A stretch of 64,000 nt of DNA, taken from Bacteroidota bacterium (GTDB lineage Bacteria; Bacteroidota; Bacteroidia; M30B66). Each line of letters opens with the position of its first letter. The first letter of the stretch is position 1. A program made the position numbers and the translations under genes. This document shows positions 20,220-36,371 of this stretch, one piece after another. The stretch lies in assembly GCA_947460255.1 (NCBI GenBank), contig CANHIS010000003.1:1-64000 (forward strand), given 5' to 3'. The notes below the pieces were generated by a model that was given only the letters and a program-made list of their open reading frames with translations, did not search any database and was not told the DNA's origin.

Positions 20220-21626
20220 TTACAACATTGTTTTCGGTGCTACATAGTCTGTTTTTGCTAGAGAAGTGGTCGATAAGGCTTTAAATCCTCCGATAATATT
20301 TACAATATTGTCAAAGTTTTTTGATTGAAGAATTGAAGATGCAATAACAGATCTGTATCCTCCAACGCAATATATATAGTATTTATGGGTTGGATTCACC
20401 ATGCTCAAATTATCGAGAATGAAGTCAAGAGGCATGTTTTCAGCGCCAGTTAAATGCTCAGAATCAAATTCGCTTTTTCTTCTCACATCTAATAAATTCA
20501 AATTTTCGGTTTCGAATTTAGATGCGAAATCTTCAGCATTAATTTGCTCCAATTTTTCTGTTGTGTGCCCAGCTTCCAACCATGATTTTATGCCACCTTT
20601 TAAGAATCCAAGTGCATTGTCGTATCCTACGCGTGACAACCGCGTAACAACTTCTTCTTCCATGCCTTCATCTGCAAGGAATAAAATTGGCTGTTCTAAA
20701 TTCTTAATCAATAAACCTACCCATGGTGCAAAGCTGTCTTCAATGCCGATATACCAAGAACCAGGAATATGTGCTTCTGCAAATGCTTCTTTCTTCCTAG
20801 TATCAAGTATGAGTGCTTCTGTAGTTTCTCTAACGGTTATAAATTCTTCAATGGATAGCGGACGAATTCCTTTAGATAAAACATCATCAAATGATGCATA
20901 TCCTGTTTTGTTCATCACTACATTTTTAGGGAAATATTGCGGTGGAGCAACTAATCCATCTGTAACTTCAGCGATAAATTCTGCTTTTGACATATTTCTC
21001 AATGCATAATTAAACTGCTTTTGATGTCCTAATGTATCAACTGTTTCTTTGCTCATGTTTTTACCACATGCAGATCCAGCGCCATGTCCGGGATATACAA
21101 TTACATCATCTGCCAATGGTAGGATTTTATTGTGTAATGAATCGAAAAGATATCCTGCTAAATCTTCCCTTGAAAGGTCTGATTTTACTGCAAGATCTGG
21201 GCGTCCAACATCACCAATAAATAATGTGTCTCCAGTGAAAATTGCATTTTCTTTCCCATTTTCATCGATCAGCAAGTATGTACTTGATTCCATGGTATGT
21301 CCGGGTGTATGTAATACCTTGATTTTTATTCTCCCCAATATTAAAACTTCGTTATCTTTTGCAATATGGGCTTCGAATTCGGGCGTTGCAGTTGGCCCAA
21401 AAACAATTTGAGCACCTGTTTTTGCAGCGAGATCAATATGCCCAGAAACAAAATCTGCATGAAAATGCGTTTCCAAAACATATTTAATTGTTGCTCCATT
21501 TATTTCTGCCAATTTTATGTAAGGCTCCGATTCTCTTAGTGGGTCGATAATAGCCACTTCGCCAGCACTTTCGATATAGTATGCTGCTTCCGCAAGACAG
21601 CCAGTATACAATTGAATTATTTTCAT
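20220..21626 (-). CDS. MBL-fold hydrolase with two C-terminal rhodanese domains (persulfide dioxygenase-like)
   Basis: ETHFHADFVSGH, GHTMESSTYLL, GDTLFIGDVGRPD; last rhodanese loop YCVGGYR, first rhodanese domain lacks Cys. Confidence 0.9.
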   Translation of the reverse strand: MKIIQLYTGCLAEAAYYIESAGEVAIIDPLRESEPYIKLAEINGATIKYVLETHFHADFVSGHIDLAAKTGAQIVFGPTATPEFEAHIAKDNEVLILGRIKIKVLHTPGHTMESSTYLLIDENGKENAIFTGDTLFIGDVGRPDLAVKSDLSREDLAGYLFDSLHNKILPLADDVIVYPGHGAGSACGKNMSKETVDTLGHQKQFNYALRNMSKAEFIAEVTDGLVAPPQYFPKNVVMNKTGYASFDDVLSKGIRPLSIEEFITVRETTEALILDTRKKEAFAEAHIPGSWYIGIEDSFAPWVGLLIKNLEQPILFLADEGMEEEVVTRLSRVGYDNALGFLKGGIKSWLEAGHTTEKLEQINAEDFASKFETENLNLLDVRRKSEFDSEHLTGAENMPLDFILDNLSMVNPTHKYYIYCVGGYRSVIASSILQSKNFDNIVNIIGGFKALSTTSLAKTDYVAPKTML

Positions 21627-28181: not shown

Positions 28182-28214
28182 TTTGCATCGAATAGGGATT
28201 TGTACCTATGTTTG
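28182..28214 (+). promoter_or_regulatory. Bacteroidetes sigma-A-type promoter for the tRNA-like RNA
   Basis: TTTG (28182-28185), 21-nt spacer, TATGTTTG (28207-28214). Confidence 0.7.
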
Positions 28215-28227
28215 CACTAAATAACAC

Positions 28228-28378
28228 TGTAGGGTGTTGAAACTGGCAGACAATCCCTCTTGTCTCGGGGGTGAGGATCCAGGGAAAAACGGTGTTTAGC
28301 GGGTTGACCACTCAACTCTTTCGAGAGTCTTGAACATTGGCTAACCTCCTCGTGAAGGTTCGAATCCTTCCTCTACAG
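28228..28378 (+). ncRNA. Class II tRNA-like RNA with 82-nt variable region and GUC anticodon loop
   Basis: Acceptor TGTAGGG/CTCTACA; D arm TTG-AAACTGGCAGA-CAA; anticodon arm CCCTC-TTGTCTC-GGGGG; T arm GAAGG-TTCGAAT-CCTTC; variable region base stem GAGGA/TCCTC. Confidence 0.7.
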
Positions 28379-28399
28379 CAGAATTTCCCCAATACCCCT

Positions 28400-28442
28400 A
28401 ATCCCCGCTGTTTGTGATGGTTCAGCGGGGATTTATTTTTTT
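28400..28442 (+). terminator. Rho-independent terminator of the tRNA-like RNA
   Basis: AATCCCCGCTG-N12-CAGCGGGGATT followed by T-rich tract. Confidence 0.85.
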
Positions 28443-28444
28443 AT

Positions 28445-28606
28445 CCACGGACTGTAGCTCGTGGTAGAAGTTAGAGGTTTTAGAATGTATATATATCCAG
28501 CACTTTAGCCATGGACTAAAGTCCATGGTTGCGGGTTGAAATATGAGGATGTGTAGTTATTCTCCTCGCAGCACAGGACTTTCGCAGTACCGGACTTTAG
28601 TCCGGT
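28445..28606. repeat. Cluster of three REP-like palindromes
   Basis: CCACGGACTGTAGCTCGTGG (28445-28464), CCATGGACTAAAGTCCATGG (28509-28528), ACCGGACTTTAGTCCGGT (28589-28606). Confidence 0.65.
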
Positions 28607-28619
28607 GACACATAAAAAA

Positions 28620-31297: not shown

Positions 31298-31311
31298 GTA
31301 ACAATTGTATC
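31298..31311. promoter_or_regulatory. Putative Crp/Fnr-type operator (site E, weaker)
   Basis: GTAACAATTGTATC, 37 nt upstream of TACTTTTG (31335-31342). Confidence 0.4.
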
Positions 31312-31361
31312 CATTGCATGGATCATCGGTGATCTACTTTTGTCTTATCAAAAATTCAAAA

Positions 31362-32780
31362 ATGAAAGTAGAACAAATTTATACAGGATGTTTGGCTCAA
31401 GGCGCTTACTATATTGTATCGAACGGAGAAGCCGCAATCATTGATCCACTTCGCGAAACCAAGCCTTACATGGATCGTTTGGAGAAGGACAATGTGAAAT
31501 TGAAATATATTTTCGAAACGCATTTTCATGCGGATTTTGTTTCAGGTCATCTGGATTTGAGTAAAAATACTGGCGCGCCGATTATTTATGGTCCGAACGC
31601 AAAGCCTGAATTTGATGCAATTATTGCAACCGACGAGCAGATTTTTGAATTGGGTGCATTGAAGATTAAAGTGCTTCATACACCTGGTCACACCATGGAA
31701 AGTACCACATTCTTGTTAATTGATGAGAATGGAAAAGACCACTGCATATTCTCTGGCGATACATTGTTCCTCGGTGATGTAGGGCGTCCGGATTTGGCGC
31801 AGAAAGCAGCGAGCATGACCCAAGAAGAACTTGCAGGCACTTTGTACGAAAGTTTGATGAATAAAATCATGCCTTTGGCGGATGATGTGATTGTTTATCC
31901 TGCACATGGCGCTGGAAGTGCTTGTGGTAAAAATATGATGAAAGAAACGGTGGATACTTTGGGCAACCAAAAGCGCATGAATTATGCCTTGAATCAACCT
32001 AGTAAAGAAGCATTTATTGCAGCTGTAACGGACGGATTACTTCCTCCTCCAGCATATTTTGGAATGAACGTAGCGATGAACAAAAAAGGCTACGATAGTT
32101 TTGAAAACGTATTTAACAATGGCATGCGTGCATTGTCGCCAGATGAATTCGAAGTAGCTGCCGAAACTGGTGGAAACGCTTTAATGCTCGACACGCGCGA
32201 CAGTGCAATTTTCCATAAAGGATTTGTGCCACAGTCGATTAATATCGGAATTAACGGAGATTTCGCTCCTTGGGTGGGTGCTTTGGTTGGAAATGTTGCA
32301 CAACCAATTTTGTTGATCACCGAAGATGGAATGGAAGAAGAAACTGTTACACGTCTCACTCGTGTTGGTTTCGATAATATTTTAGGACATTTAAAAGGTG
32401 GTTTTAATGCTTGGTTAAATGCAGGAAAAGAAATCGACACCGTAAACCGGATTTCTGCTAAGCAATTTTCTGAAACCGTTGATATAGCTACCGATGTTGT
32501 GGTAGATGTTCGTAAAGAAAGTGAATATTCTGCTGAACACGTTGATGGCGCATATTCAAAACCTTTGGCATACATCAATGAATGGATTAAAGATATCAAT
32601 CCTGAACAGCATTTCTTCCTTCATTGCGCTGGTGGATACCGCAGTATGATTGCTAGTAGTATTCTTCAAGCACGCGGATACCGCAATTTTACTGAAGTGG
32701 AAGGTGGTTTCAAGGCAATCGCTGAAACCTCAGTGCCAAAAACTGATTTCGTTTGCCAGAGTAAGGTAATGAAAGCTTAA
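31362..32780 (+). CDS. MBL-fold hydrolase with two C-terminal rhodanese domains (paralog of 20220..21626)
   Basis: MKVEQIYTGCLAQGAYYIVSNGEAAIIDPLRET; ETHFHADFVSGH; HCAGGYRSMIASSIL. Confidence 0.92.
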   Translation: MKVEQIYTGCLAQGAYYIVSNGEAAIIDPLRETKPYMDRLEKDNVKLKYIFETHFHADFVSGHLDLSKNTGAPIIYGPNAKPEFDAIIATDEQIFELGALKIKVLHTPGHTMESTTFLLIDENGKDHCIFSGDTLFLGDVGRPDLAQKAASMTQEELAGTLYESLMNKIMPLADDVIVYPAHGAGSACGKNMMKETVDTLGNQKRMNYALNQPSKEAFIAAVTDGLLPPPAYFGMNVAMNKKGYDSFENVFNNGMRALSPDEFEVAAETGGNALMLDTRDSAIFHKGFVPQSINIGINGDFAPWVGALVGNVAQPILLITEDGMEEETVTRLTRVGFDNILGHLKGGFNAWLNAGKEIDTVNRISAKQFSETVDIATDVVVDVRKESEYSAEHVDGAYSKPLAYINEWIKDINPEQHFFLHCAGGYRSMIASSILQARGYRNFTEVEGGFKAIAETSVPKTDFVCQSKVMKA

Positions 32781-32901: not shown

Positions 32902-33702
32902 ATGGAAATCATTGGCTTTATTGCTTCTATTGCAATTGGAATTTCTTTGGGATTAATTGGAGGTGGAGGAAGTATTCTTACCGTTCCAGTTTTGGTTTAT
33001 TTATTTGGTGTAGATACTGTTCTAGCAACTGCTTATTCGCTTTTTATTGTAGGATTGAGCAGTGCTGTCGGATCGGTGAATTTCTTCCGAAAAGGATTGG
33101 TAAATATCAAGACAGCAATTGTTTTTGGTATTCCTTCAATTATTGCTGTATTCGCTACTCGAGCATTGATGGTGCCTGCAATACCTAAAGAGGTGTTTAC
33201 GCTGGGAGATTTTATCGTTACAAAGAGTATTTTAATGATGTTGCTGTTTGCAGTTTTAATGATTGCTGCTTCATACAGCATGATTAAGAAAGACAAACCG
33301 AAGCCCAACAACGCTTTGCCAGAAGAACAAAAATTCAATTACCCAATGATTCTATTAGAAGGTGCCGTTGTTGGTGTATTAACAGGATTGGTTGGAGCAG
33401 GTGGAGGATTTTTAATTATTCCGGCTTTGGTCGTATTAAGTAAACTTCCAATGAAAGAGGCAGTGGGAACCTCCTTGGCAATTATTGCAGCTAAATCGCT
33501 CATTGGATTTTTTGGAGAAGGCGGAGAAACTGTTATTGATTGGGTGTTCCTTATGAAAGTATCAGCGTTCGCCATTGCAGGAATTTTCATTGGTACAGCA
33601 CTTTCAAAAAGAATTGATGGAGCTAAATTAAAGCCTGCATTTGGATGGTTTGTATTGGTAATGGGAATTTACATCATCATTAAGGAGACAATGTTTAAAT
33701 AA
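32902..33702 (+). CDS. Sulfite exporter TauE/SafE family protein
   Basis: ISLGLIGGGGSILTVPVLVYLFG...GLVGAGGGFLIIPALV. Confidence 0.94.
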   Translation: MEIIGFIASIAIGISLGLIGGGGSILTVPVLVYLFGVDTVLATAYSLFIVGLSSAVGSVNFFRKGLVNIKTAIVFGIPSIIAVFATRALMVPAIPKEVFTLGDFIVTKSILMMLLFAVLMIAASYSMIKKDKPKPNNALPEEQKFNYPMILLEGAVVGVLTGLVGAGGGFLIIPALVVLSKLPMKEAVGTSLAIIAAKSLIGFFGEGGETVIDWVFLMKVSAFAIAGIFIGTALSKRIDGAKLKPAFGWFVLVMGIYIIIKETMFK

Positions 33703-33713
33703 ATCAAAGCTTG

Positions 33714-33727
33714 GTAACAAATGTAAC
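33714..33727. promoter_or_regulatory. Putative Crp/Fnr-type operator (site D)
   Basis: GTAACAAATGTAAC; begins 36 nt upstream of -7-like CATTTTTG (33750-33757). Confidence 0.5.
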
Positions 33728-33780
33728 CGTTACCCAAAAAACATTGTTCCATTTTTGTCATTCACGTAAAATCTAAATGC

Positions 33781-34095
33781 ATGGGATTTCTAAGCAATAT
33801 CTTTGGAAGTAGCAGTCAAACAGAAGATTTAAAAGCAATTATTTCTTCTGGAGCATTTTTGGTCGATGTTCGCAGTAAAGCGGAATTCGAATCAGGAAGT
33901 GCGAAAGGAGCAGTAAATATTCCTGTGGATCAGATTGATTTTCATTTGGACCAATTCAAAGGAAAGGATAGAATAGTGGTATTCTGCCGCAGCGGAAACA
34001 GAAGTAGTCATGCCAAGTACACTTTAGAAAAGAACGGCATTAAAAACGTTGTAAATGGTGGAACTTGGCAGAATGTGTTGAAAAATCAATCTTGA
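33781..34095 (+). CDS. Rhodanese-like domain protein
   Basis: LVDVRSKAEFESGSAKGAVNIPV...VVFCRSGNRSSHA. Confidence 0.92.
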   Translation: MGFLSNIFGSSSQTEDLKAIISSGAFLVDVRSKAEFESGSAKGAVNIPVDQIDFHLDQFKGKDRIVVFCRSGNRSSHAKYTLEKNGIKNVVNGGTWQNVLKNQS

Positions 34096-34100
34096 AAACG

Positions 34101-34448
34101 ATGAAGTCTTTTTATAAATCAATTTTTTTATTGCTCACCATTTTTGTTTTTGCAGCTTGTTCAGGACAAAAATCAGCCATTGATGTAGAACATGCATTTT
34201 TGGTAGATGTTAGAACACCGGGTGAATTTGCCGAAGGATCAGTTCCTGGTGCAGTGAATATTCCAGTAGATGAAATTTCACAAAGGTTAGAAGAATTTAA
34301 AGGGAAAGAACAAGTTGTAGTTTTTTGCAGAAGTGGAAGTCGCAGTTCAAGAGCTGAAGGAATATTAACCAGCAACGGAATTAAAAATGTTGTGAATGGT
34401 GGAACTTGGCAAATGGTAGATGAATTGGTAAAATCAAAAAATAAATAA
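34101..34448 (+). CDS. Rhodanese-like lipoprotein
   Basis: MKSFYKSIFLLLTIFVFAACSGQ lipobox; VVFCRSGSRSSRA; C-terminus GIKNVVNGGTWQ shared with preceding gene. Confidence 0.9.
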   Translation: MKSFYKSIFLLLTIFVFAACSGQKSAIDVEHAFLVDVRTPGEFAEGSVPGAVNIPVDEISQRLEEFKGKEQVVVFCRSGSRSSRAEGILTSNGIKNVVNGGTWQMVDELVKSKNK

Positions 34449-34525
34449 ATCAGGATAATTTCTAATTCATAGTGTTAGAATGAAATGCTGATTTTTTGTT
34501 CGTCTTAAAATAATGATCTGAAAAC

Positions 34526-35359
34526 ATGAACGAACTCAATGTAGTTATCCCAACCGATTTTAGTGTTCAGGCAGAATATGCCTACATTATGGTTAAAAAA
34601 CTGGAAGAGAAAATTCCAGTAATTGTTCAATTCCTACATGTTCTGCAGGTGCCAGACACGGTGACTATGGATTCAAAAGGAAATATTTCTACGTGTGGAG
34701 ACATAGACGCAAAACATGTTGAAATGCAGCGTGATATTGCATTACGTAAATTAAATAATCTAAAAACATTGTATGGAGAAGATATTCAAGTGCATTTGCG
34801 ATTAGGAAAAGTAAATGATGGAATTCTCCAGTTTGCTGAAGAAGCTAAAGTAGACTTGATTGTTATGGGAACCACTGGTGCATTTGGATTAAAGGAAAAG
34901 CTATCAGGCAGTGAAACTCAAATTGTTGCAAGAAAGTCGGAAATTCCTGTGCTTTCTTTAATGTGTGATCGAAGTGATTTAAAAATTGAGAATCTATTGT
35001 TGGTTCATGATTTTAATAGGCCCGAAAAGCTCGATTTGTCTGTAATGAAGAAGCTCATGAATGCCTTTGGATGCACACTTCACATGCTACAAATTACTTC
35101 CGGAAATCCGGAAGCAGAAATGGTTGCATTCGAAGAAAATATCAAGCTGTTTGCAATGTTAAACAGTGTGCAGAAATATGTCCCACATTTGGTTAAGGAT
35201 ATTGACGTTGAAAATGGCGTGGTGCATTTTAATCAAATGAACAATATGGATATCATCTGTATTGGAACACATGGTAAAGGAAGCAGACTGCACAAAAGTG
35301 CCACCGAGAAGTTGATTAATCATCTTTTCAAACCGATTATCTCATTTCACCTCAATTAA
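34526..35359 (+). CDS. Universal stress protein family
   Basis: NVVIPTDFSVQAEYAYIMV...DLIVMGTTGAFGLKEKLSGSETQIVARKSEIPVL. Confidence 0.88.
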   Translation: MNELNVVIPTDFSVQAEYAYIMVKKLEEKIPVIVQFLHVLQVPDTVTMDSKGNISTCGDIDAKHVEMQRDIALRKLNNLKTLYGEDIQVHLRLGKVNDGILQFAEEAKVDLIVMGTTGAFGLKEKLSGSETQIVARKSEIPVLSLMCDRSDLKIENLLLVHDFNRPEKLDLSVMKKLMNAFGCTLHMLQITSGNPEAEMVAFEENIKLFAMLNSVQKYVPHLVKDIDVENGVVHFNQMNNMDIICIGTHGKGSRLHKSATEKLINHLFKPIISFHLN

Positions 35360-35377
35360 TCAGCACTTCTCAAAATT

Positions 35378-35935
35378 ATGATTGAATTTATCACACAACC
35401 TTGGTCTTGGTGGTTCTCAGGAATCATTATTTCAGCCATCATGTTTACTATGCTTTATTTTGGGCAATCATTTGGATTCTCCTCTAACTTGAGAACAATT
35501 TGTTCTATTGCTGGAGCTGGTAAAATGGTGAAATTCTTCGATTTTAATTGGAGAAGTCAACTATGGAATATCGTATTTTTAATTGGTGCCATAATCGGAG
35601 GATTTATTGCGAATCAATTTTTAAGCAATGATGAACCAGTGAAGATTTCAAAAGCAACGATTGAAACGCTTTCTCAATACGGATTTGAAGCTCCTAAAGG
35701 TGCCCAACCTGATGAATTGTTTACGTGGGAAGCCGTTTTTACGTTGAAAGGATTTCTAGTTTTAGCCATTGGAGGTTTATTGGTAGGCTTCGGAGCAAGA
35801 TATGCCGGTGGATGTACTTCTGGACATGCCATTAGTGGCTTAAGTGACCTTCAAATTCCTTCTCTAGTTGCAGTAATTGGATTTTTTCTTGGAGGTTTAA
35901 TCATGACCTACTTCATCTTTCCACTTATATTTTAA
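35378..35935 (+). CDS. YeeE/YedE family (thiosulfate-transport-like) half-protein
   Basis: GFGARYAGGCTSGHAISGLSDLQIPSLVAVIGFFLGG. Confidence 0.9.
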   Translation: MIEFITQPWSWWFSGIIISAIMFTMLYFGQSFGFSSNLRTICSIAGAGKMVKFFDFNWRSQLWNIVFLIGAIIGGFIANQFLSNDEPVKISKATIETLSQYGFEAPKGAQPDELFTWEAVFTLKGFLVLAIGGLLVGFGARYAGGCTSGHAISGLSDLQIPSLVAVIGFFLGGLIMTYFIFPLIF

Positions 35936-35957
35936 CATACAATAAATTTCAATCGAA

Positions 35958-36371
35958 ATGAAGTTTCTAAAGTTTTTAATTGTTGGTGTTATTTTCGGAA
36001 TTGTAATGGCCAAATCAGAAGCCTTTTCTTGGTACCGAATTCAAGAAATGTTTCGATTTCAGTCGTTTCATATGTATGGAATTATTGGAACTGCCGTTGT
36101 TTTAGGTGTTCTTGGAGTTGCTTTAATTAAGAAGTATAAAATCCGAGATTTTGCAGGGAATACAATTTTATTTCATCCCAAAGACAAAGCTTATCCTCGA
36201 TACATTATTGGTGGAACTCTTTTCGGACTTGGTTGGGCACTCAGTGGTGCTTGTCCTGGTCCAATGGTGGTAAATATCGGTTATGGTTATTTGCCATTTA
36301 TCATAGTATTCCTTTTTGCTGCCCTAGGAACATTTCTTTATGGGATAATTAAGGACAAACTCCCTCATTAA
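35958..36371 (+). CDS. YeeE/YedE (DUF6691-like) half-protein
   Basis: GGTLFGLGWALSGACPGPMVVNIGYGY. Confidence 0.88.
   Translation: MKFLKFLIVGVIFGIVMAKSEAFSWYRIQEMFRFQSFHMYGIIGTAVVLGVLGVALIKKYKIRDFAGNTILFHPKDKAYPRYIIGGTLFGLGWALSGACPGPMVVNIGYGYLPFIIVFLFAALGTFLYGIIKDKLPH

Follow-up and report, generated by a model that had tools for sequence, protein, structure and literature searches.

Positions 28182-28442 of the window (the whole 64,000-nt stretch of DNA analyzed here) raise the question whether a gene with the outline of a tRNA, a giant variable region, and an Asp-type anticodon loop yields a tRNA that reads codons, a decayed or accidental fold, or an RNA that is recognized as a tRNA and used outside decoding. 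The following features are distinguished, with the basis of each in brackets.

28182..28214, +, promoter of the Bacteroidota type: TTTG at 28182-28185, a 21-nt spacer, TATGTTTG at 28207-28214 (sequence)
28227..28379, +, tRNA-like RNA as modelled, from position -1 to C74 (match of covariance model R1)
28228..28234 with 28371-28377, +, acceptor stem TGTAGGG/CTCTACA (compensatory changes at five of seven pairs)
28237..28253, +, D arm TTG-AAACTGGCAGA-CAA, stem strands 28237-28239 and 28251-28253 (helix 98.7% paired, 101 copies)
28255..28271, +, anticodon arm CCCTC-TTGTCTC-GGGGG with GUC at positions 34-36, U37, and C38 (position tallies)
28255-28259 with 28267-28271, +, anticodon stem, enclosing the loop TTGTCTC at 28260-28266 (sequence)
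28272-28353, +, variable region, 82 nt (sequence)
28273..28276 with 28348-28351, +, variable-region base stem GAGG/CCTC (99.5% paired, three of four pairs compensatory)
28281..28289, +, internal-loop strand AGGGAAAAA, family consensus GGGAUAAAC (left motif tally, 97 variable regions)
28290..28298 with 28331-28339, +, second helix CGGTGTTTA/TTGAACATTG (helix length against swapped partners)
28301..28311, +, apical conserved motif GGGTTGACCAC (GGNNGACCAC in 32 of 97 members)
28316..28327, +, small hairpin CTCT-TTCG-AGAG (stem letters co-change in relatives L002, L003, L005, and L007)
28340..28346, +, internal-loop strand GCTAACC (right motif tally)
28354..28370, +, T arm GAAGG-TTCGAAT-CCTTC (100% paired in 101 copies, three pairs compensatory)
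28378..28379, +, G73 (28378) and C74 (28379), CCA not encoded (GC in 101/101 copies)
28400..28442, +, Rho-independent-type terminator: hairpin 28400-28433 with a 12-nt loop, then a T run (fold)

The initial annotation had claimed a complete cloverleaf, an 82-nt variable region, a TTTG-N21 promoter, and a strong terminator, and the sequence bears this out: every arm it named is found in its place, and the terminator hairpin folds with -19.2 kcal/mol (z -4.3) ahead of a T run. The signals upstream recur in the family: 64 of 101 copies carry the promoter element TANNTTTG no more than 90 nt upstream (6.8 in shuffles), and 33 of 101 carry a boxA-like leader GTTCTT, presumably an antitermination signal, within 45 nt upstream (1.2 expected). 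The absence of an encoded CCA is shared with many ordinary tRNA genes of the same genome, whose own tRNAs end in N73-C74. On one side the RNA gene borders on a gene whose protein looks secreted, on the other side on an M28-peptidase-like gene (gene names assigned by eye).

Several further observations concern the surroundings of the gene. The loop GTTTGTGATGGTTC of the terminator hairpin is conserved in L003-L007 while the stem sequence changes, and each of four genomes of the family has this 14-mer a single time, at this site only. Window positions 28440-28610, in the interval that separates the RNA from the M28-peptidase-like gene, contain repeated imperfect palindromes CCATGGACTAAAGTCCATGG and CCGGACTTTAGTCCGG. 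Two similar metallo-beta-lactamase/rhodanese-like fusion genes (20220-21626, reverse strand, and 31305-32780, forward strand) and a series of genes for rhodaneses and membrane transport (32902-36371, forward strand) also lie in the window; by eye, these genes form a sulfur-metabolism cluster.

The single-sequence fold of the window RNA is no better than that of shuffled sequences (z +0.46), and, since its energy is not unusual, only a comparison with relatives could rule out chance. Homologs were found by BLASTN (14 of 60 relatives), by a pattern of the D and anticodon arms (at least 119 matching stretches in GTDB genomes, all of those listed being titled Bacteroidota save one "bacterium," and 20 viral contigs), and by the covariance model R1, built on 29 diverse copies, which the window copy matches at 136.2 bits (E 2.6e-39, model positions 1-141). 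With R1 at E <= 1e-22, the RNA is found in 66 of 395 genomes of the class and in four of 149 genomes of another Bacteroidota class; in a phylum-wide sample, 42 of 392 genomes have matches of at least 95 bits, below which the list contains one 78-nt variant at 72.6 bits and then matches the size of ordinary class II tRNAs. Matches of about 85 nt at 57-66 bits were taken as ordinary class II tRNA genes and excluded from the counts.

Over 101 distinct model-found copies, the 24 pairs of the cloverleaf and the variable-region base stem are formed in 99.0% of cases (acceptor stem, 100%), and 16 of them show compensatory double changes, with 257 double-change cells observed against 66.6 +/- 10.7 in shuffles. 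In slid controls of this alignment pairing falls to 54-62%; the alignment itself was fitted to R1, and a MAFFT alignment of 29 copies agrees with it. A decayed tRNA is ruled out by this covariation. More generally, the view that the RNA is a decayed tRNA or a chance fold could draw on the unremarkable single-sequence fold, but given the strong covariation across two classes and phages and a conserved linkage to an Lrp/AsnC regulator, its probability is close to nil. Individual copies do show lesions or insertions: in the same-genus copy L002:1546-1693, most of the anticodon loop is deleted, the remainder being ~90% identical, and L013, L061, and L145 have a small hairpin inserted in the D loop, e.g., GGTCTGAATGACC.

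Neither ARAGORN nor Rfam 15 at the gathering score calls anything at the window RNA; in a low-threshold Rfam scan the T arm alone scores (14 bits to RF00005). ARAGORN calls only four of 241 distinct family copies. No Rfam family matches the RNA, and no paper describing it was found among the open-licence literature. It belongs to a previously unannotated, widely conserved tRNA-shaped family of Bacteroidota bacteria and phages. The suggestion of the initial annotation that this may be a non-canonical tRNA, or an aminoacyl-accepting or regulatory mimic of Asp-type identity, is supported by the homologs, the covariation, and the absence of an Rfam hit.

The variable region, 24-131 nt long among the pattern hits, has a shared architecture: a covarying base stem, an internal loop made up of GGGAUAAAC and GCUAACC, and a second helix, with the apical GGGUUGACCAC present in the long forms and GACCAC confined to those in which the region has 65 nt or more. 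The longest helix flanking the motif averages 6.95 pairs, compared with 4.33 for swapped partners (97 variable regions). Of the helices proposed initially, GAGGA/TCCTC and CTCT-TTCG-AGAG are backed by relatives, while conservation is lacking for TTAGC/GCTAA and GTTGA/TCAAC: GCTAAC is instead a part of the conserved internal loop, and the true second helix is the one listed above. A kissing interaction between the anticodon GUC and the GAC of GGGTTGACCAC was weighed by eye and dropped, because short members without this motif still keep GUC. One 78-nt member (L298:1238-1315, reverse strand) has no variable arm and carries the loop CTATCTC; in its genome, the Lrp-adjacent copy L221 looks decayed.

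The anticodon loop separates two kinds of requirements. For aspartate, a tRNA identity review gives five strong determinants, G73, G34, U35, C36, and C38, and names the pairs G1-C72 and G2-C71 as strictly conserved in bacterial tRNA-Asp (PMC9976931). Among 100 copies with a full loop, G34 is found in 97, U35 and C36 in all 100, and C38 in 99, whereas position 33 is U in 77, G in 14, C in five, and A in four, and position 37 is U in 82, C in nine, G in eight, and A in one, a purine in 9%. These tallies were taken from model hits, in which other loops were permitted (the first pattern scan demanded GTCNC), and are mildly biased, as the training copies of R1 were largely pattern hits. G73, C74, U1:A72, and G2:C71 are invariant (101/101). 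Hence the aspartyl-tRNA synthetase (AspRS) determinants are kept in 97-100% of 100-101 copies, together with G2-C71, while G1-C72 and G10 are not kept. Conversely, U33 and a purine at 37 are present in all 29 ordinary tRNAs found by search in the window genome; the window copy retains U33 and has U37 instead of a purine. What the anticodon loop conserves are thus its Asp identity positions, while position 37 is free, as the initial annotation suspected, and so is 33. A few copies have G34 replaced, and the close relative L002 has lost a part of the loop.

Of the features of canonical decoding tRNAs, the family shows a covarying 7/3/5/5 cloverleaf and lacks consistent U33, purine 37, and an RF00005 score at the gathering level. 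Judged from sequence, the family retains what AspRS would read except for pair 1:72, and drops what the ribosome would need. With the synthetase marks kept and the codon-reading marks lost, the RNA probably has a role outside ordinary translation.

The alternative that it is an unusual but decoding tRNA, inserting aspartate or another amino acid at GAC/GAU, perhaps under special conditions, with an ornamental variable region, would account for the complete cloverleaf, the GUC anticodon, the phage copies within tRNA arrays, and three phage copies with a variable region of ordinary size (24 nt) that ARAGORN calls tRNA-Asp. However, U33 is missing in 23% of copies and a purine at 37 in 91%, compared with 29/29 present in ordinary tRNAs, and ordinary tRNA-Asp(gtc) genes are found both in the window genome and in the phage array L142, which makes this alternative unlikely.

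Comparison with known systems leads to a composite picture. With tRNA-Asp (GUC) the RNA shares the anticodon arm type, G34, U35, C36, C38, G73, and G2:C71; the arm is closest to that of the window genome's tRNA-Asp in 99 of 100 copies. It differs in the class II Leu-like body, in U1:A72 for G1:C72, in having U, C, or G at 37 and a free position 33, in being missed by RF00005 and nearly always by ARAGORN, and in the variable region: 82 nt in the window, as opposed to 4-5 nt in the class I loop of tRNA-Asp. With tRNA-Leu, it shares class II geometry, two unpaired bases before the T stem, and the D-arm sequence, which is closest to the tRNA-Leu D arms of the same genome and had been noted initially as Leu/class II-like; R1 also cross-hits ordinary class II tRNAs at 57-66 bits. 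Unlike tRNA-Leu, which has A73, it carries an invariant G73, an Asp anticodon arm, and an enlarged variable region with conserved internal motifs. By its sequence, the RNA looks like a tRNA-Leu-type body bearing a tRNA-Asp anticodon arm.

Allo-tRNAs and tRNA-Sec-like tRNAs also have a long variable arm and G73, and some allo-tRNAs carry GUC (PMC7609411). However, their acceptor/T-stem geometries (8/4, 9/3, or 8/5) are not those of the RNA, and the logic of their recognition by SerRS is independent of the anticodon; tRNA-Sec, moreover, has an 8-bp acceptor and the anticodon UCA, where the RNA has GUC. Both allo-tRNA and tRNA-Sec were rejected, because U8 (101/101) stands opposite C65 (99/101) and cannot pair with it, so that the T stem keeps 5 bp and no 8- or 9-bp acceptor with a shortened T stem is formed. 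The RNA resembles tmRNA in being tRNA-like, in the enlarged insert, and in carriage by phages next to tRNAs, but its D and anticodon arms are complete; no insert encoding a tag was found in it and no tmRNA was called by ARAGORN or Rfam. Hence the RNA lies inside the tRNA superfamily and yet fully fits none of the tested definitions (tRNA-Asp, tRNA-Leu, tRNA-Sec, allo-tRNA, tmRNA).

Charging by SerRS, an enzyme that ignores the anticodon and reads G73 and a long variable arm (PMC7609411), would agree with the class II shape and the invariant G73. It leaves the retention of GUC and C38 unexplained, and the two unpaired bases (GT/TT) between the variable stem and the T stem are as in the tRNA-Leu of the same genome, not the tRNA-Ser; we regard it as quite improbable. 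An uncharged decoy, whose Asp-type anticodon loop would occupy AspRS or an anticodon-cutting or modifying enzyme, is suggested by the retention of this loop without decoding features, by carriage in phages, and by the precedent of yeast AspRS, for which mRNA mimics of the aspartate anticodon domain are known (PMC9976931). Still, a decoy has no obvious need for the invariant G73, C74, and G2:C71 or for an intact T arm, and we give it a small chance.

In 77 of the ~120 bacterial loci found by pattern and BLAST, a gene for a protein of ~155 aa of one type of the Lrp/AsnC family (Pfam AsnC_trans_reg and HTH) is divergently transcribed, with its start 120-350 nt upstream of the RNA, and in the model-found set the pairing is seen in 53 of 75 genomes and 17 of 21 families, in both classes. 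Genes farther out differ, suf-type and acyl-CoA-ligase-like in some lineages, an ABC permease and a trmB-type gene in others; therefore, the RNA and the Lrp gene form a conserved unit. The linkage is absent from the window's own family (0/6) and from f50 (0/5), which have lost it or never had it; the Lrp gene of the window genome lies on contig C21.

Two f35 genomes without the RNA also have no such Lrp. Three f40 genomes without the RNA retain the Lrp gene, and by eye a promoter and a terminator-like hairpin are seen upstream of it. Opposite the Lrp gene, L226, L227, and L229, which lack the RNA, keep what looks like the promoter of the RNA and a strong terminator; this short transcription unit, devoid of the tRNA-like part, is probably a scar of loss. 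At 19 loci, mostly Chitinophagaceae-like and including L019:3391-4095, a trmB-type gene (Methyltransf_4) follows downstream of the RNA; TrmB makes m7G46 in tRNA.

Viral contigs with the RNA reach 326 kb, and portal proteins are found on two of those examined. Several phage copies lie inside tRNA arrays, two of them beside tmRNA. As the array L142 also contains an ordinary tRNA-Asp, the RNA is no substitute for it there. A search of annotated phage records gave a single match, at 76% identity, in a 636-kb record of an uncultured phage that bears no annotation, and a search of annotated plasmid records gave none.

Candidate protein partners were also considered. An extra AspRS was rejected: genomes with and without the RNA have one full-length bacterial-type copy each over the cut-off, and no second copy was seen in the genomes compared. 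The aminoacyl-tRNA-dependent transferases LPG_synthase_C and Acetyltransf_6 were rejected as well, since they occur both with and without the RNA.

Taking all this into account, we propose, with a probability of about 0.55, that the RNA is stable, recognized by AspRS, probably aspartylated, non-decoding, and tied to amino-acid regulation. The conservation of its determinants supports a role for AspRS in reading it, and the preserved C74 and T arm agree with 3' processing like that of tRNAs; its transcription, charging, partner, and output we infer. Against the proposal stand the invariant U1:A72 in place of G1-C72, the loss of G10, the copies with a replaced G34 or, in L002, a damaged loop, the negative outcome for the partner enzymes considered, and the missing Lrp neighbor in the window's own family and f50. 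The RNA would be processed as a tRNA and probably charged with aspartate, and would not read codons, while the enlarged variable region, a separate domain with a conserved internal loop, would most likely be the place where a dedicated partner docks. Most lineages would make the RNA from a promoter region shared with the divergent Lrp/AsnC regulator, so that its level may follow amino-acid status. Charged or uncharged, it may act outside decoding, either by signaling the supply of aspartate or the occupancy of AspRS, or by donating aspartate. The complete proposal, a dedicated, Lrp/AsnC-regulated, phage-carried aspartylated RNA that reports aspartate supply or donates aspartate non-ribosomally, is put forward tentatively, at somewhat below even odds.

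A conserved tRNA-like RNA of many Bacteroidota families and some phages has thus gone unnoticed by Rfam and by programs that find tRNAs. In the way its positions are constrained, recognition by a synthetase comes apart from decoding with a cleanness seldom seen in nature, and the recurrent Lrp/AsnC link offers a direct way into its function. If it is indeed a non-decoding aspartylated RNA, it would constitute a new class of functional aminoacyl-RNA.
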